Assembly: GCA_902615975.1 (NCBI GenBank)
Contig: CACMRC010000005.1
Coordinates: 37,738 to 101,737 of the forward strand
Direction: 5' to 3'
Source of the DNA: an uncultured Pelagibacteraceae bacterium
GTDB taxonomy: Bacteria > Pseudomonadota > Alphaproteobacteria > Pelagibacterales > Pelagibacteraceae
DNA length: 64,000 nt
The position numbers were made by a program, and so were the translations under genes. Every line of letters starts with the position of its first letter. The stretch's first letter is position 1. Below the pieces are notes generated by a model that had not been told where the DNA came from, searched no databases, and worked only from the letters and a program-made list of their open reading frames with translations. This document shows, one piece after another, positions 50,018 through 62,378 of this stretch.

Positions 50018-51012
50018 TTAAAAAAGTATTTCAAATAAATAAAGAAACTTTAAATAAAGAAAATTATTTGTTGTTTTATGGAATAAATGAGGGATCCAAA
50101 GATGTTAAAACCTCAGAAATTCTTCTAAAAAAAAAAAAAGAAGAAATATCTAATTTTGACGAAAAAGACATTTTAAATGATGAGGAAATTTTTTTTAATG
50201 AGATACTAAATAAATCTTTATTTTCAGAAGAAAAAATAATTATCATAAAGAAAGGTACCGATAAAATATTAAACCTTTTAAAAAAAATCATAGATAAAAA
50301 GTTAAATGACTTAAAAATTATTGTTATATCAGGTGTTCTTGAAAAGAAATCAAAACTAAGAAATTTTTTTGAAAAAGAAAATAATTTAATTTGTGTTCCA
50401 TTTTATCAAGATACATACGAAACATTATTAGATTATGCTAAAAATTTCCTTTTAAAAAACAAAATTACAATGTCAACTTCAAACATAAATTTAATTATCA
50501 ATAAATGTAATGGTGATAAAAAAAATTTAATAAATGAATTGGATAAAATTCAAATGTTCTCTCTAAAGGAGAAAAAAATTAGTACGGCAGATCTAATAAA
50601 ATTAATTAATTTGACAGAAAATTATAGTATTAATGAATTGGTTGATAACTGCCTTGCAAAAAATAAAAACAAAACAATACAAATTTTAAACGAAAATAAA
50701 TTTGATACCCAAGAAAATATATTAATTATTAGAACATTTTTAATGAAGTCAAAAAAATTACTAAAATTATGCATAGATTATGAAAATAATCAAAATTTGG
50801 ATCTTACAATAAACAACTCAAAACCACCTATATTCTGGAAGGATAAAGATATAACTAAACAACAAATATCTAAATGGAAATCTCAAAATATTAAAAAGCT
50901 TATTTATAATTTGGGAGATATTGAGTTAGAAATTAAAAAAAAACTTGATAGTTCAATTATAATAATTACAGATTTTATAAATGATCTGGTGATAAATAAA
51001 GCTAATAATTAA
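50014..51012 (+). CDS. holA: DNA polymerase III subunit delta
   Basis: Clamp-loader subunit that opens the sliding clamp. It has 332 residues. It has the loose HolA pattern: YLLFYGINEGSKDVKTSEIL (nucleotide-loop-like start), KIIIIKKGTDKILN, VPFYQDTYETLLDYAKNFL and IINKCNGDKKNLINELDKI. Extremely Lys/Asn/Ile-rich. The assignment is helped by leuS-lptE-holA synteny. It converges with parB, overlapping 11 bp. Confidence 0.9.
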   Translation: MIKKVFQINKETLNKENYLLFYGINEGSKDVKTSEILLKKKKEEISNFDEKDILNDEEIFFNEILNKSLFSEEKIIIIKKGTDKILNLLKKIIDKKLNDLKIIVISGVLEKKSKLRNFFEKENNLICVPFYQDTYETLLDYAKNFLLKNKITMSTSNINLIINKCNGDKKNLINELDKIQMFSLKEKKISTADLIKLINLTENYSINELVDNCLAKNKNKTIQILNENKFDTQENILIIRTFLMKSKKLLKLCIDYENNQNLDLTINNSKPPIFWKDKDITKQQISKWKSQNIKKLIYNLGDIELEIKKKLDSSIIIITDFINDLVINKANN

Positions 51013-51844
51013 GTTTTATAATATCAATTATTTTTTTTAATTGCTCTAAATCTTTATATTCAAAACTTATTTTACCTTTGTTTCTTTTGTTGTTTTGTAT
51101 ATCAACATTTAAACCAATTTTGTTGGAAATTGATAATTCTAATGCAATTATATTGGTGTCCTTAGATCCTTTTAATTTTGTTTTTTTATTTTTAAAGATT
51201 TTAACAAAATTCTCAGCTTGTCTAACTGAAAGTTTTTTTTCAACAATTTTGGAGGCAACAAAAGATGCGTTGGCAAGACCAACTAAAATTTTAGCATGTC
51301 CAGGTGTGATTTTTTGGTTTTCAATTAGTTTTACTACATCATCCGGTAAAGTTAAAAGTCTTAAAGAATTGCTTATATGACTTCTGCTTTTACCAATAAA
51401 TTTTGATACTTTTTCTTGATCATAAGAAAATTCATCGATTAATCTTTTATACCCCTGTGCTTCTTCAAGCGGATTTAAATCATGTCTTTGAACATTTTCT
51501 ACAATTGCAAATTCAAGTGACTTTAAATCGTCTGCCTCTGTAACTACTACAGGTACATTATGAAGACCCGCTCTTTGAGCTGCTAGCCATCTTCTCTCAC
51601 CAGCGATAATTTCGTATTTTGATTTTTCATTATTTGAATTTCTCACAATAATAGGCTGTATCATTCCTCTTTCTTTTATAGAATTTGTTAAGTCCTCTAA
51701 ACTAGCTTTATCAAATATCTTTCTTGGTTGATATTTATTTGGCACTAAGTCACTAATTGGTAATTGATTTTTTTCAAGCTCTACTTTAGTTTCACCTATT
51801 AATGAGGATAAACCTCGACCTAATCCCTTTTTAATCTTATCCAT
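51002..51844 (-). CDS. parB: Chromosome partitioning protein ParB
   Basis: CTP-dependent DNA clamp that loads at parS and spreads. It has 280 residues with GLGRGLSSLIGE at the N-terminus, PNKYQPRKIFDKASLEDL, and the CTP-binding IAGERRWLAAQRAGL with ENVQRHDLNPLEEA. The helix-turn-helix YDQEKVSKFIGKSRSHISNSLRLL follows, and the C-terminal part is the dimerisation domain. Coupled to parA by a one-base overlap. A perfect cognate-type parS lies 1.4 kb away in rsmG. Confidence 0.97.
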   Translation of the reverse strand: MDKIKKGLGRGLSSLIGETKVELEKNQLPISDLVPNKYQPRKIFDKASLEDLTNSIKERGMIQPIIVRNSNNEKSKYEIIAGERRWLAAQRAGLHNVPVVVTEADDLKSLEFAIVENVQRHDLNPLEEAQGYKRLIDEFSYDQEKVSKFIGKSRSHISNSLRLLTLPDDVVKLIENQKITPGHAKILVGLANASFVASKIVEKKLSVRQAENFVKIFKNKKTKLKGSKDTNIIALELSISNKIGLNVDIQNNKRNKGKISFEYKDLEQLKKIIDIIKLNY

Positions 51845-52638
51845 TAGGCGGCGCTCCCCATTGTTGTTTCTTGATTTATAAATTCATCTGTGAAATTAAA
51901 ATATGATTTGCTTCCTGGGCAGGATTTGTCATAAATCAATACAGGCATCCCATGTGAAGGAGCTTCTGATAATCTCACATTTCTTGGTATAACTGTTGTA
52001 TAAACTTTTTCATTAAAATAATCTCTTGCTTCTTTTTCAACTTGAGATGAAAGCTTATTTCTTTTGTCATACATCGTTAAAAGTATACCTCTAATTTTTA
52101 AATTAGGATTTAGACTTACCTTTATTCTTTCTATTGTTTTCATTAATTGAGTTAAGCCCTCGAGAGCAAAAAATTCTGTCTGTAAAGGGACTAAAAGAGA
52201 ATTGGAGCTTACTAGTGCCATTACTGTCAGCAAGTTCAAAGAAGGTGGACAGTCAATTAAGACATAATCATAAAATCCTCTAGAATTGTTTAAATAAGCG
52301 GTTAATTTGGTCTTCAATAGGAACGCCCTGTTACTGTCATCAGCTGTTTCTACCTCTAGGCCAGATAAATCTACATTAGATGTAATGATGTCTAGATTTT
52401 CAAAATCTGTTTTTTTAATCACCTCAAAAATTTCTTTAGCTCCATTCAATACTTCATAAATTGTATCGATTGAGCTATCCATATTAGATAATCCAAGACC
52501 TGTGGTTGCATTGCCTTGAGGGTCTAGATCAATAACTAAAATTTTTTTACCTATTTGAGATAAGCCTGCTGCAAGATTTATTACCGTAGTAGTTTTTCCT
52601 ACCCCACCCTTTTGATTTATGACAGAAATAATTTGCAT
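51844..52638 (-). CDS. parA: Chromosome partitioning ATPase ParA
   Basis: Deviant Walker A ATPase of 264 residues that drives origin segregation with ParB. The P-loop is NQKGGVGKTTTVINLAAG near residue 8. DLDPQGNATTGLG and YVLIDCPPSLNLLT complete the nucleotide site. The rsmG-parA-parB order is the typical origin-proximal operon. Confidence 0.98.
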   Translation of the reverse strand: MQIISVINQKGGVGKTTTVINLAAGLSQIGKKILVIDLDPQGNATTGLGLSNMDSSIDTIYEVLNGAKEIFEVIKKTDFENLDIITSNVDLSGLEVETADDSNRAFLLKTKLTAYLNNSRGFYDYVLIDCPPSLNLLTVMALVSSNSLLVPLQTEFFALEGLTQLMKTIERIKVSLNPNLKIRGILLTMYDKRNKLSSQVEKEARDYFNEKVYTTVIPRNVRLSEAPSHGMPVLIYDKSCPGSKSYFNFTDEFINQETTMGSAA

Positions 52639-52659: not shown

Positions 52660-53304
52660 TTATTTTTTTCTTTTAATTTTTTTAATATTTATCAAAAATG
52701 AATCCTCATTTGTTAAACTTTTTTTTTCTGTGTACTCTAACTCCCAATTTTTTTTAGAATTTTCAAAAATTTTTTTTCCAGTCTTACCCATAAAAAAAAT
52801 TAAATTTTTGTATTTTGAAAAATTTTCATAAACTAAATCTAAAACTACAGGCATTGGTTTAAATGCTCTCGACATTATTGTTCCCGTTTCTAAATTTTTT
52901 ATTTCAAAAATATTTTTTTGAAAAACCTTTGTGTTTAAATTTAATTTTTCTGAGACTTCTCTCAAAAAGTTGCTTTTATGGTAGCTTTTTTCATAAAGAT
53001 GCACATTCATATTATTATTAATATTTTTAAGTAGAATTGCTACAATTATACCAGGCATACCCCCTCCTGAACCTATATCTGTGGTTGTATCGCTATTTAA
53101 GTCAACAAAATCAATAATTTGTGCTGAATCTATAATATGACGCTCAATTATAGCTTTTTTTGATGCCGTATTTTGACTAATTATGTTGATTTTTTTGTTT
53201 TTTTCTAGAATCATGGATATATAGTTTTCAAAATCCAAAAATGTTTCACGTGAAACATTTAAGTGATTGATTCTAGAATAAAAATTTAAAATTTCCTGAT
53301 CCAT
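52660..53304 (-). CDS. rsmG: 16S rRNA G527 N7-methyltransferase
   Basis: Methylates G527 of 16S rRNA. It has 214 residues with the SAM-binding DIGSGGGMPGIIVAILL near residue 75 and a MSRAFKPMPVVLD segment. Its codons for NVSRETF near residue 15 are the perfect parS site, a coding/site overlap seen in many bacteria. It overlaps the mnmG stop by one base. Confidence 0.96.
   Translation of the reverse strand: MDQEILNFYSRINHLNVSRETFLDFENYISMILEKNKKINIISQNTASKKAIIERHIIDSAQIIDFVDLNSDTTTDIGSGGGMPGIIVAILLKNINNNMNVHLYEKSYHKSNFLREVSEKLNLNTKVFQKNIFEIKNLETGTIMSRAFKPMPVVLDLVYENFSKYKNLIFFMGKTGKKIFENSKKNWELEYTEKKSLTNEDSFLINIKKIKRKK
53242..53257. promoter_or_regulatory. parS: parS centromere site
   Basis: TGTTTCACGTGAAACA, an exact match to the widespread ParB-binding 16-bp palindrome. 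It lies within the 5' part of rsmG, near parA-parB and about 8 kb from the putative origin. It is the only full match I noticed in the window. Confidence 0.95.
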
Positions 53305-56668: not shown

Positions 56669-57499
56669 ATGATTGTATGGCTGTCTTCTTACCCAAAAAG
56701 TGGAAATACATGGGTAAGATTATTCTTAGATAATCTATTATCACCTAATAAAGAATTTAATATAAATGATAATGTAATTGGTCAATTCCCTCTTAGAAGT
56801 CATTTTTTAAACTTATCTGATAATATAGATAATCAAGATGAATTTGCTAAAAATTGTATTAAAGCACAACAAAAAATAAATCTAGAAAATACATTAAAAA
56901 TTTTTAAAACACATAACGCTTTTTGGAATTGGCGTGGAGGAGAGTACACTTTTACTGATGAAAAAAATACACTTGGAGTAATATATATTGTTAGAGATCC
57001 ACGCAATATAATTACTTCGGTATTAAATTATTTTCATAAAAAAAATTATTATGATGCGCTTGAATTCATGAAAGAAAATAAAATATTAGGTGGTAATGAT
57101 GCTGAAATAGGATTACCAACAATAATTGGTTCATGGTCAAACCATTATAAATCTTGGAAAAAATTTAAGAAAAATTTTTTAATTATAAAATACGAAAATC
57201 TTATAAAAAATCCATTTGAAGAATTTTCTAAAATTATAAGTTACCTAGAATCTATTACTGATCTTAAATTTGAGAATAAAAACGTATTAAAAGCTATTGA
57301 AGAATGCAAATTCGATAATGTGTCAAGACAAGAAGATAAATTTGGTTTTAATGATAACTCGAAGAGAAATAAAGAACTTAATAAAAAATTTTTTAATTTA
57401 GGGCCAAAAAATAAATGGCAGAACATTTTAGATAAAGAGATAGTAAAAGAAATTGAAGAAATTTTTAAAACAGAAATGAAGGAGTTGGGATATTTGTAA
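56669..57499 (+). CDS. PAPS-dependent sulfotransferase family protein (copy 2)
   Basis: 276-residue paralogue of the protein at 39671-40507. They share the opening WL-x-SYPKSGNTWVR, IYIVRDPR, the IIKYE-L segment and the ending EM-x-ELGYL. The acceptor is unknown. It lies alone on the plus strand between minus-strand mnmE and rho, genes that usually neighbour each other, so it looks like an insertion into a conserved block. Base composition is similar to its surroundings. It ends 14 bp from the convergent rho stop. Confidence 0.85.
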   Translation: MIVWLSSYPKSGNTWVRLFLDNLLSPNKEFNINDNVIGQFPLRSHFLNLSDNIDNQDEFAKNCIKAQQKINLENTLKIFKTHNAFWNWRGGEYTFTDEKNTLGVIYIVRDPRNIITSVLNYFHKKNYYDALEFMKENKILGGNDAEIGLPTIIGSWSNHYKSWKKFKKNFLIIKYENLIKNPFEEFSKIISYLESITDLKFENKNVLKAIEECKFDNVSRQEDKFGFNDNSKRNKELNKKFFNLGPKNKWQNILDKEIVKEIEEIFKTEMKELGYL

Positions 57500-59286: not shown

Positions 59287-60282
59287 TCAAATATTTCTTT
59301 CAATCAAGGATTTTAGTAAAATTATATGATCACTGTTATCATTTAAACAGGGCACCATATCAAAATTTTTCCCTCCAGAATTTAAAAAACTTTCTTTAGC
59401 TTGAATTTGTATTTCCTCCAAAGTCTCTACACAATCAGATGCAAACCCTGGGCAAATTGTAAGAACATTTTTAATACCCTCTTTGGGCAAATTTTCTAAA
59501 GTTTTGTCAGTATATGGTTGGAGCCATTCTTGTGGACCAAATCTTGATTGAAATGTAGTTTTTATTTCAATTGAACTAAATTTTTCCGAAATAAGTCTTG
59601 TCGTTTTATGACAATAACAATGATAAGGATCACCTTTATCAAAATATTTTTTTGGTATCCCGTGATAAGAAGCTATAATTAGATCTGGTTTCCAAGTAAT
59701 TTCATTTATTTTTTTATTAATCGAATTAACAAGCGCATCAATATAAAGTGCATCAGATTCATAATGAGGAATTATTTTTAAGGATGGTTGCCACCTCATT
59801 TTCATTAAAGTTCTGTAAACTTCATCACAAACTGTTGCCGTTGTGGCTGCTGCGTATTGGGGATAAAGAGGAAGTATTACTAAGTTTTCACAACCCATTT
59901 TATGCAATTTATGAATCTTGCTTTTAATACTAGGGTTTCCATATCTCATAGCAAAATCTATAATTATATTTTCTTTTGATAGTAAATTTGAAATTTTCTC
60001 ACTTTGCTTTTTTGTATAATAAAGAAGTGGTGATATATTTTCATCCTTCATCCAGATTTGTTTATATGCTTTAGCAGTTTTAGAGGGTCTAAAATTTAAA
60101 ATAAACAAATTTAAGATGACTTGCCAAACTAACGGATTTACTTCGATAACTCTTCTATCAGAAAGAAATTCTTTTAGGTATTTTCTTATATCAAACCAAT
60201 TAGTAGAATCGGGTGTGCCCAGATTAATTATAAGCACAGCTGTATTACCATATTTTATTGGTGGGTGTTTTTTTTCAATCAT
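59287..60282 (-). CDS. hemH: Ferrochelatase
   Basis: Inserts Fe2+ into protoporphyrin IX. It has 331 residues. VLIINLGTPDSTNWFDIRKYLKEFLSDRRVIE opens the protein (given in part as INLGTPDS and KEFLSDRRVIE). The active-site His is in ASYHGIPKKYFDKGDPYHCYC near residue 200, and TFQSRFGPQEWLQPYT and CPGFASDCVETLEE are also present. Overlaps the hemE stop by 4 bp. Confidence 0.97.
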   Translation of the reverse strand: MIEKKHPPIKYGNTAVLIINLGTPDSTNWFDIRKYLKEFLSDRRVIEVNPLVWQVILNLFILNFRPSKTAKAYKQIWMKDENISPLLYYTKKQSEKISNLLSKENIIIDFAMRYGNPSIKSKIHKLHKMGCENLVILPLYPQYAAATTATVCDEVYRTLMKMRWQPSLKIIPHYESDALYIDALVNSINKKINEITWKPDLIIASYHGIPKKYFDKGDPYHCYCHKTTRLISEKFSSIEIKTTFQSRFGPQEWLQPYTDKTLENLPKEGIKNVLTICPGFASDCVETLEEIQIQAKESFLNSGGKNFDMVPCLNDNSDHIILLKSLIERNI

Positions 60283-61283
60283 TTAAAATCTTTTACAAAT
60301 TTAATTAAGTTTTCAACCATTTCTGGATTCGTTTCAGGTAAAATTCCATGACCAAGATTAAATATATATGGATGATCTCGAAAAATTTCCAAATATTTAG
60401 AAGCCTCTTTTTTTAATGTTTCTTTATCTGTTAACAAAATTTTTGGGTCTAAACCACCTTGTATAGGTATTTTTATGTCTCTAAGTATATTTTTTGGATC
60501 AACATTATAATCAATGCTTATAGCGTCAGGTTTAACAATTTCACAAAATTCTTTATAATTTTTAATTTCTCGAGGAAAACATATCACAGGTATATTTAAA
60601 GATTTTACATAATTAACTAAATTAAGAGTTGGCGAATAAACATAATTTGCTAAATCTTTTTCATCTAATAAACCCGCCCAACTATCAAAGATTTGAATAA
60701 CATTTGCACCATTATCAATTTGATTTTTGATATGAACCTTTAAAAATTTTTCAATAATTAATAAAATTCTGTTTATTAAAAACTCGTCTTTAAAGAAATC
60801 TTTTTTTAGATTTTTTTTAGGAGACTGTTGATTAATCATGTAAACTAATAATGTCCATGGGGCGCCGACAAATCCGATGGTATTTTTATTTTTTAAACTG
60901 ATGTCTGAGCTTACTTTTTTTATTGCTTTATACACACGATGTATCTTCTTTACAAAGTCAACTTCATCGGTCTTGGTAATTTCATTTAAATTTAGTTCCC
61001 CTAATTTTGGTCCGAAATTTTTTTCAAATTCTACTTTTTGTCCTAATCCGTAGGGAAGCATTAAGATGTCTGAAAATATTATTGCAGCATCTAAATCAAA
61101 TCTTTTTAATGGTTGCAGGGTTATTTCTGAAGACAAAATATCATTTAAACATAAATTAATAAAATTAGGATTTTCTTTTCTTATTTCTCTAAATTCTGAT
61201 AAATATCGACCGGCCTGCCTCATAATCCATATAGGATTAAACGAAGTATCTTTTTTAATTATTACTTTGTTTAAAGGTTTCAT
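60279..61283 (-). CDS. hemE: Uroporphyrinogen decarboxylase
   Basis: Decarboxylates uroporphyrinogen III to coproporphyrinogen III. It has 334 residues with the N-terminal signature PIWIMRQAGRYLSEFRE, AIIFSDILMLPYGLG, QIFDSWAGLL and IQGGLDPKILL, plus HGILPETNPEMV. It is the gene that flanks oriC in Caulobacter and Rickettsia, and here borders the putative origin on its left side, transcribed away from it. Confidence 0.97.
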   Translation of the reverse strand: MKPLNKVIIKKDTSFNPIWIMRQAGRYLSEFREIRKENPNFINLCLNDILSSEITLQPLKRFDLDAAIIFSDILMLPYGLGQKVEFEKNFGPKLGELNLNEITKTDEVDFVKKIHRVYKAIKKVSSDISLKNKNTIGFVGAPWTLLVYMINQQSPKKNLKKDFFKDEFLINRILLIIEKFLKVHIKNQIDNGANVIQIFDSWAGLLDEKDLANYVYSPTLNLVNYVKSLNIPVICFPREIKNYKEFCEIVKPDAISIDYNVDPKNILRDIKIPIQGGLDPKILLTDKETLKKEASKYLEIFRDHPYIFNLGHGILPETNPEMVENLIKFVKDFK

Positions 61284-61550
61284 AAATATGTATTATTAAT
61301 TATTGTAGTTGTAATATATCTTGTGAATAAAGGTGATTAATTTTTATAAACATTATATTCACAATTTACCAACATGTTATTTGAATAAAATTGTTTAAAA
61401 TGAAGCTTTTTTTACCATATTAATTTTTGTGGATTGTTTTGCCCTATTTATTATTAATGTTAATAAATAGCAGTTTTTACAAGGTTAATTTAAAAAATGT
61501 AAAATTGTGTAATTTAATTAAAATATTACAAATTTATTAACAAGTTATTC
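61284..61550. other. oriC: Putative chromosomal replication origin (oriC)
   Basis: A 267-bp gene-free, very AT-rich gap between divergent hemE and ppsR, the oriC position in Caulobacter and Rickettsia. It holds TGTGAATAA (61322-61330), a perfect TTATNCACA DnaA box on the minus strand; ATATTCACA (61355-61363), 8 of 9; TGTGGATTG (61428-61436), 7 of 9; and TTATTCATG (61545-61553), 7 of 9. The right half (about 61470-61545) is almost pure A/T, a candidate unwinding element. Genes on both sides point outward, and parS-parAB lies 8-10 kb away. Not experimentally shown. Confidence 0.8.
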
Positions 61551-62378
61551 ATGAGTAATACATATCAAATATATTTAATTTCCGACTCAACAGGCGAGAC
61601 CTTGGATAGAATATTTTTAGCTCTTAAGGCTCAATTTTTAAATATAGAATATAAGGTTCATTCTTACTCTTTTACAAGAACGGAAAACCAAATTTTAAAA
61701 ATTTTAGAAGATGCAGAAAAAAACTCAAATGCAATAATTTTATATACTATAGTAGATAACAATTTGGCTAAATATTTAGCAAATGTAAGCGAAGATAAAA
61801 AAATTCCATGCTTTGGCGTTCTTGGCAACTTAATATTAAATTTTTCAAAAATACTTAATCAAAAAGCAACTCATGAACCAAGTGGACAACATATATTGAA
61901 TGAAGAGTACTATAATAGAATCGAAGCAATTCAATTTACAATGAACCACGATGATGGAAATTTGATAAACGAAGTACAAAAATCAGACATTATCCTCGTG
62001 GGAGTAAGTAGAACAAGTAAAACGCCAACATCTATTTACTTAGCCAACAAAGGGTTTAAAACCTCTAATATTCCTTTGGTAAATGAAAATTCATTACCAG
62101 AAGTACTTAAAAAAAACCCAAAAATGACCTGTGTTGTTGGACTAAGCACTGAGCCAGAAAGGTTGGTTGATTTAAGAAAAAATAGAATGACTTCTTTAAA
62201 AGAAACAGAAAACATTCAATACACAGATTTAGAAAATATAAAAAAAGAGGTTTTAGAGGCAAAAAAAACATTTCAAAAATATAAATGGCCGCTTATAGAT
62301 GTAACTAGAAAATCTGTTGAAGAAACAGCTGCTTCTATAATTAAAATTCACGAAATATATTTAAACAATGCTAAATAA
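61551..62378 (+). CDS. ppsR: Pyruvate,phosphate dikinase/PEP synthase regulatory protein
   Basis: Bifunctional DUF299 kinase/pyrophosphorylase of 275 residues that switches PPDK or PEP synthase on and off. IYLISDSTGETLDRIFLALKAQF opens it (given as LISDSTGETLDRIF), and the nucleotide loop is LVGVSRTSKTPTSIYLANKG near residue 150. It is the first gene right of the origin, as in Caulobacter. It overlaps maf by 11 bp. Confidence 0.94.
   Translation: MSNTYQIYLISDSTGETLDRIFLALKAQFLNIEYKVHSYSFTRTENQILKILEDAEKNSNAIILYTIVDNNLAKYLANVSEDKKIPCFGVLGNLILNFSKILNQKATHEPSGQHILNEEYYNRIEAIQFTMNHDDGNLINEVQKSDIILVGVSRTSKTPTSIYLANKGFKTSNIPLVNENSLPEVLKKNPKMTCVVGLSTEPERLVDLRKNRMTSLKETENIQYTDLENIKKEVLEAKKTFQKYKWPLIDVTRKSVEETAASIIKIHEIYLNNAK

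Follow-up and report, generated by a model that had tools for sequence, protein, structure and literature searches.

The 267-nucleotide (nt) gap that separates hemE from ppsR in a SAR11 genome is, with high probability, the replication origin (oriC) of the SAR11 chromosome, in which putative DnaA boxes would nucleate initiation and the edge next to hemE would melt. The DNA analysed is a stretch of 64 kb (hereafter, the window) at the end of contig C5 of a draft genome of 1.19 Mb in 19 contigs, and the gap, with 17.2% GC, occupies positions 61284-61550. A sequence-only reading had proposed a SAR11-type oriC at this place, and the proposal is now supported by the conservation of the boxes, by adjacent parS and parAB, and by loci that lack a flanking gene yet keep the gap. 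Few organisms in the sea are more abundant than SAR11 bacteria. Our literature search found no description of the parts of their origin, and a DoriC prediction for SAR11 may well exist. As far as the accessible parts of two papers go, the oriC of HTCC1062 was "manually identified" according to a legend (PMC4033161), and a skew script was applied to a Pelagibacter draft (PMC9516812). The gap and its flanking genes are as follows.

60279..61283, minus strand: hemE, left flank (TIGR01464, 310.9 bits, over the cut-off).
61284..61550, no strand: candidate oriC, the hemE-ppsR gap, with conserved gap length, box enrichment and a match to a same-genus hidden Markov model (HMM).
61551..62378, plus strand: ppsR (DUF299/COG1806), right flank (NF003742, 301.7 bits, over the cut-off).

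Gene calls and profile matches agree with the gene order described earlier, with hemE on one side and ppsR, then maf and aroE, on the other (the position of coaE is beyond the window), and the outward flip of gene orientation is present at the gap (hemE on the minus strand, ppsR on the plus strand). In the accessible part of PMC1914354, hemE/COG1806 is the position of the origin in Caulobacter and Rickettsia. The GC content is lower at the gap (17%) than in the 2-kb bins of the window (22-35%). The right half of the gap had been called almost pure A/T; this holds for the last 60-70 nt only (9-13% GC), whereas most of the gap has 16-27% GC in 45-nt steps. The following DnaA-like boxes and associated motifs are predicted in the gap.

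61322..61330, minus strand: inverted DnaA box TTATTCACA, one mismatch to the published consensus TTATCCACA and perfect for TTWTNCACA.
61332..61339, plus strand: GGTGATTA, which by eye only resembles the GGGGATT that follows the inverted box in many alphaproteobacterial hemE-ppsR gaps.
61344..61352, plus strand: DnaA-like box TTATAAACA, number 1 of the phased array (motif scan).
61355..61363, plus strand: DnaA-like box ATATTCACA, number 2 of the phased array, 11 nt further on (motif scan).
61366..61374, plus strand: DnaA-like box TTACCAACA, number 3 of the phased array, again 11 nt further on (motif scan).
61428..61436, minus strand: weak box CAATCCACA, two mismatches to TTATCCACA.
61458..61466, minus strand: mid-gap box TTATTAACA (also read TGTTAATAA), with TATTATTAA beside it on the plus strand; together, module 61449..61466.
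61534..61542, plus strand: box TTATTAACA at the ppsR edge (motif scan).

The sequence-only reading had counted one perfect DnaA box and three near matches. The exact consensus was not found in the gap; what stands is a best site that is perfect for TTWTNCACA, within a set of eight sites with at most two mismatches. Eight such sites are the maximum for any 267-nt stretch in the 64 kb and are reached by 0.11% of stretches, whereas the single site with at most one mismatch is not unusual, since 8.9% of the window's 267-nt stretches have one. To the right of the inverted box stand three plus-strand boxes at exactly 11-nt spacing, an order that the earlier description lacked. The window holds six 11-nt box triples with at most 4 mismatches in 21 positions; the one in the gap is the best, with two mismatches, and the others have four.

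This arrangement can be followed through relatives. A hemE search matched 55 of 61 genomes (own included), and the best 30, all from the own genus, were examined: hemE on the minus strand and ppsR on the plus strand flank a gap of 261-284 nt in 30 of 30 loci, the window's own included. With 80 named loci and 20 from other genera of the family (G135 and G139 were left out of 22 such genomes with ppsR), the set comprised 130 loci. A gap could be delimited in 128 of them, always 255-288 nt long; its left edge was extrapolated where the hemE match begins after residue 1 (e.g., L153, L029, L030 and several of L206-L225). Removal of 77 near-duplicates left 51 non-redundant gaps, to which two gaps of genus g8 and 10 gaps of f2, a second family of the order (7 of these non-redundant), were added to give a set of 63 sequences. 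In the 51 gaps, TTWTNCACA occurs 40 times, compared with 3.6 in dinucleotide shuffles; TTWTNAACA, 130 times compared with 16.4; and TTWTNHACA, 194 times compared with 36.6. Conservation of DnaA-like boxes across relatives had been suggested as a check on the proposal, and this enrichment well beyond shuffles bears it out. The typical predicted SAR11 box carries A at the second C of the published consensus. The DNA-binding domain of SAR11 DnaA retains the RDHTT recognition motif and the RPRQ stretch; thus, weaker boxes would be a simpler reading than a changed DnaA.

Spacing and position recur as well. Across the 63 sequences, plus-strand boxes lie 11 nt apart 66 times (5.8 expected) and 22 nt apart 33 times (5.5 expected), and the fullest 10-nt bin for minus-strand boxes is at gap positions 40-49, with 55 sites. 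We scored a composite of the inverted box and the three boxes at 11 nt over 28 positions. With at most four mismatches, the window contains it a single time, at the gap (score 2), and 1.98 Mb sampled from four genomes (G003, G073, G130 and G067) contain it at two sites, which are the hemE-ppsR gaps of G003 and G073; for G130 and G067, the gap lies outside these samples. The choice of mismatch cut matters, because at five mismatches the samples contain 15 scattered sites. Up to five mismatches, the composite is present in 33 of 36 own-genus gaps. An HMM built from 28 other same-genus gaps matched positions 61293-61412 (E 5.4e-13) and also the G003 gap; it contains L008, which is G003's own gap, and therefore only its match in the window is independent. 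The window was also the top match, though a weak one, of an HMM from other genera of the own family (61320-61416, E 0.23), and it was the top match of an HMM from these genera and f2 combined (61301-61387, E 0.0062), in which the G003 gap came seventh (E 7.1).

Since hemE and ppsR are divergent and both start directly at the gap, which is A/T-rich as promoters are, the gap might be only a shared control region, with divergent hemE and ppsR promoters and DnaA boxes that serve as transcription control. Loci in which a neighbor is missing make this very improbable. In f2 (L226-L235), a profile search did not find ppsR in any of the 10 genomes (the positive control, G066, matched), but in all 10 a gap of 271-281 nt separates hemE, on the minus strand, from a cluster of rightward genes; the first gene of this cluster is Maf-like in three of the 10, the three that were scanned. 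The f2 gaps contain 12 boxes with at most one mismatch (1.4 in shuffles), 44 with at most two (14.3 in shuffles) and 8 copies of CCTGTG (0.2 expected). The two loci of genus g8 (L211 and L212) were handled apart because they have no hemE upstream: in both, a gap of 353 nt lies between rho (705 bits, cut-off 509) and ppsR, and it is likewise rich in boxes with at most two mismatches (12 compared with 3.0 expected). In g8, hemE is not at the place that it occupies in other genomes; no search for hemE elsewhere was made. Because the box-rich gap persists without ppsR (10 of 10) and with rho in place of hemE (2 of 2), it would be more than a shared promoter. In addition, the number of boxes, their 11-nt phase and the constant length of 255-288 nt exceed the needs of a promoter pair, and parS is nearby in all 11 complete genomes. 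The putative element is kept for its own sake, independent of the genes that flank it, and the order provides natural cases in which either neighbor of the origin is missing. A similar change is described for the Wolbachia and Ehrlichia origins (hemE-COG1253), where hemE is kept and the other neighbor differs (PMC1914354, in its accessible part). There, COG1806 was replaced via rearrangement, whereas the f2 genomes gave no ppsR match and maf, the following gene, now adjoins the gap.

The chromosomal surroundings point to the same region. Three features of the window are relevant here.

51002..51844, minus strand: parB (TIGR00180, 200.7 bits, over the cut-off).
51844..52638, minus strand: parA (ParA-type ATPase matches, below the cut-offs among the matches listed).
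53242..53257, plus strand: perfect parS, TGTTTCACGTGAAACA (0 mismatches), inside the start of rsmG.

No other exact parS occurs in the draft genome; this one neighbors parA and parB and is about 8 kb away from the gap. In all 11 complete genomes of the family, the distance between parS and the start of ppsR is 7.1-19.5 kb. The site is placed toward hemE in 7 complete genomes of the own genus and toward ppsR in 4 of other genera, which suggests rearrangement around the predicted origin.

A different place for the origin within this region, most simply dnaA, which is 60-72 kb away in complete family genomes, would agree with a rule-based study of 185 chromosomes, including that of P. ubique; origins have been assigned at dnaA by rule (PMC2031905, in the part available). 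We find this hardly credible. The composite array was not found at the two dnaA loci that were scanned (G000 and G003), and in every one of the 11 complete genomes the distance from parS to the gap is smaller than that to dnaA. Cumulative GC skew in G003 (72.6% sampled) has its maximum at 615.5 kb and a broad minimum at 1.18-1.31 Mb, which includes dnaA (1.199 Mb) as well as the gap (1.262 Mb); however, the half-chromosome skew contrast is higher at the gap (23,867) than at dnaA (19,883), with a maximum of 25,127. GC skew had been named as a check on the hemE-ppsR origin, and it agreed in part. Mean sampled skew is positive to the right and negative to the left of the gap in four of four complete genomes, with permutation values for the right-minus-left difference of 0.013 (G073), 0.0056 (G130), 0.0036 (G067, 10 samples) and 0.00005 (G003). 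The best-fit intervals lie 6-30 kb (G003), 16-44 kb (G130) and 31-35 kb (G067) from the gap; the fit in G073 did not agree and is taken up below. Because GC skew tracks gene strand strongly, this evidence is limited: it supports the region, resolved to tens of kilobases, without pinpointing the gap. An E. coli-like dif pattern had no matches in two genomes and thus gave no independent confirmation of the terminus.

Where the gap would open can be approached through repeats on its hemE side.

61284..61302, no strand: hemE-side A/T edge, predicted first melting site, among the two weakest parts of the gap and beyond the TAG repeats in relatives.
61305..61317, plus strand: GTAGTTGTAATAT, degenerate counterpart of the DnaA-trio-like repeats of relatives, with fewer than three consecutive NAN triplets at the left box.

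Many relatives have TAG-type repeats on the plus strand to the left of the inverted box, for example TATTAGTAGTATTAG in L206 and, at the hemE edge, GTAGTAGTAGTAGTTG (GTAGTAGTAGTAG) in L232. The DnaA-trio motif is described, in the accessible parts of PMC6669920 and PMC8287927, as GAT repeats read 3' to 5' away from the box. Read 3' to 5' from the box, the relatives' TAG repeats are GAT, and they are therefore DnaA-trio-like. Runs of at least four consecutive TAN triplets beside a box occur in 18 of 63 sequences (200 shuffles: mean 0.8, maximum 4; opposite strand: 0 of 63) and runs of at least three in 34 of 63 (shuffles: 5.0, maximum 11; opposite strand: 8 of 63). A trio rule of three or more (.A.) within 0-16 nt of a DnaA box holds for the left box of 27 sequences out of 61, a total that includes the own one.

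The gap could also be an origin that first melts at its ppsR edge or in the mid-gap module (61449-61466). By nearest-neighbor stability both edges are weak, in the window and across relatives: the least stable stretch of 40 nt begins at gap position 200 or beyond in 21 of 61 sequences and at positions 0-19 in 19 of 61. In the own gap, moreover, a TAN run of three (TATTATTAA) directly adjoins the box at 61458-61466, while the left repeats are degenerate. We nevertheless judge this rather unlikely, because the relatives' repeats favor the hemE side. Among 46 modules with a run of at least three, 28 are at box positions 20-59, at the left box, 17 at 120-199, mid-gap (one of which is L211's left module, offset by its longer gap), and 1 at 260, near the ppsR edge. 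Among the sequences listed, 6 of 10 have a run of at least four at the left box, and in f2 at least three consecutive TAN triplets stand within 60 nt of hemE in 5 of 10 gaps (3 with pure TAG repeats; the other 5 are without). On this comparison of repeats, melting is likelier at the hemE-side edge, and the suggested melting in the right half gains no support over it. Modules similar to 61449-61466 occur at mid-gap in other relatives, possibly as a second, less likely unwinding module.

The predicted mechanism is the ordinary DnaA one; its control appears to differ from that of Caulobacter. The best matches to a CtrA model reached 122.6-142.5 bits in four of four genomes, below the cut-off of 350; this model, of the Rhodobacter type, exceeded its cut-off in just 1 of 14 control genomes, and the result is therefore supporting only. 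The accessible part of PMC2877005 reports that ctrA was not found in Pelagibacter. The motif TTAA-N7-TTAA, the strict CtrA site, occurs 34 times in 26 of 63 gaps (15.1 expected), several times inside the 11-nt box array, because 11-nt-phased TTATTAACA boxes, with their TTAACA repeats, create the motif themselves. In a lineage with no CtrA match over the cut-off, such phased boxes can mislead programs that locate origins by scoring CtrA sites.

The methylation site GANTC, whose depletion was first noticed as one of three motif counts, is nearly absent: it occurs twice in 128 gaps, once in 53 family gaps (8.5 expected) and not at all in the 10 f2 gaps (3.0 expected, although zero was also reached in shuffles). 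By comparison, 107 other intergenic-like stretches hold 39 sites, or 1.92 per kb (34.2 expected), and 28 gaps of other alphaproteobacteria hold 77 (62.6 expected). At 30 loci, its density per kb is 2.0 in the first 250 nt of hemE, 5.3 in the first 250 nt of ppsR and 0.12 in the gap. Other palindromes are also depleted in the gaps (GT.AC, 8 compared with 30.4; TG.CA, 6 compared with 22.4), and part of the GANTC loss therefore stems from the box-rich make-up. Of 328 strand-counted GANT occurrences in the gaps, 2 continue with C, compared with 7.1% of the other NANT there; across the window as a whole, however, GANTC likewise shows some under-use (8.5% compared with 13.2%). A PF01555 methyltransferase was found in six of six genomes searched, and the own enzyme matches the CcrM model over its full length with 579.5 bits, below the Caulobacter-type cut-off of 830; PMC3973325, in its accessible part, reports a CcrM homolog in SAR11. 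The near-absence of GANTC in a lineage with a CcrM-type enzyme invites the question whether the origin is kept free of methylation. Since no CtrA match exceeded the cut-off and the gap is nearly without GANTC, we propose that initiation would be timed by the level and nucleotide state of DnaA and not by CtrA silencing or local CcrM methylation. Going further, and only tentatively, for we hold it at somewhat less than an even chance, the gap may be a pared-down alphaproteobacterial origin that has shed CtrA silencing and been cleared of GANTC, in which 11-nt-phased, weak TTATTAACA-like boxes alone set initiation and whose DnaA-trio ancestor can still be read in f2 and elsewhere in the class.

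Several results weigh against an origin of this kind in the gap. The strict CtrA site is absent from the own gap, and so is the strict IHF consensus site, which occurs in 8 of 63 gaps (4.7 expected). The best-fit skew position in G073 lies 162-222 kb from the gap, and the cumulative skew minimum in G003, at 1,230,500, is about 31 kb away. Up to five mismatches, the composite is found in only 6 of 17 gaps of the family outside the own genus and in none of the 10 f2 gaps; the predicted array, in its 11-nt composite form, is mainly a feature of the own genus. Both g8 gaps are without any box within one mismatch of TTATCCACA, and an HMM from f2 alone matched neither the window gap nor the G003 gap. 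A weight matrix built on the core of 28 gaps from other alphaproteobacteria missed, among the matches listed, both the window site and the G003 gap; for the core across the class, we therefore claim only a resemblance by eye. As for melting, the window's repeat at the left box, TAG TTG TAA TAT, is degenerate and does not satisfy the (.A.){3,} rule, and stability is similar at both gap edges, so that the profile did not choose between them.

Across the class, hemE is antisense upstream of ppsR in 28 of the 30 best-scoring ppsR loci (80 matching genomes), and many of these loci show, by eye, TAG repeats, a CCTGTGGATAAC-like box and GGGGATT on the hemE side. The flanking genes, several DnaA boxes and A/T-richness are shared between the SAR11 gap and the origins of Caulobacter crescentus (Cori) and Rickettsia prowazekii (PMC1914354, in its accessible part). 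On the other hand, the SAR11 gap is shorter (267 nt compared with about 329-1067 nt in 28 class-wide gaps), the boxes of the SAR11 family are mostly TTWTNAACA and GANTC is nearly absent; compared with a Caulobacter-type Cori, the own gap has no strict CtrA or IHF site and no CtrA exceeded the cut-off in four genomes. With the basal unwinding system of Bacillus subtilis, many SAR11 relatives share 3'-GAT-5' type repeats by an inverted box, with strand and direction inferred from the published rule (PMC8287927 and PMC6669920, in their accessible parts); the window's copy, in contrast, fails the three-trio rule at the left box and is without the GC-rich spacer. We class the gap neither as a CtrA-controlled Cori nor, in its own copy, as a DnaA-trio origin, because those features were tested and not found.

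A plausible course of events would begin with DnaA binding to the inverted box at 61322-61330 and to the three boxes at 61344-61374, which, on one face of the helix, may nucleate a DnaA-ATP filament. The filament would run leftward from the inverted box onto a single strand at the hemE edge, as DnaA does on Bacillus DnaA-trios; the helicase would then be loaded, two forks would leave outward, and ParB at parS would move the new origins apart. Growth estimates from read depth need the SAR11 origin, and one published rule would put it at dnaA, about 60 kb off. At 267 nt, the element is small enough for a plasmid test.

In a contig scan, PpsR was up to 100% identical in single-cell and metagenome-assembled records of uncultured Pelagibacteraceae. 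Elsewhere in the window, an open reading frame of 276 amino acids (56669-57499, plus strand) lies between mnmE and rho, opposite to the local gene direction; it has no NCBIfam match, and its start resembles sulfotransferases.
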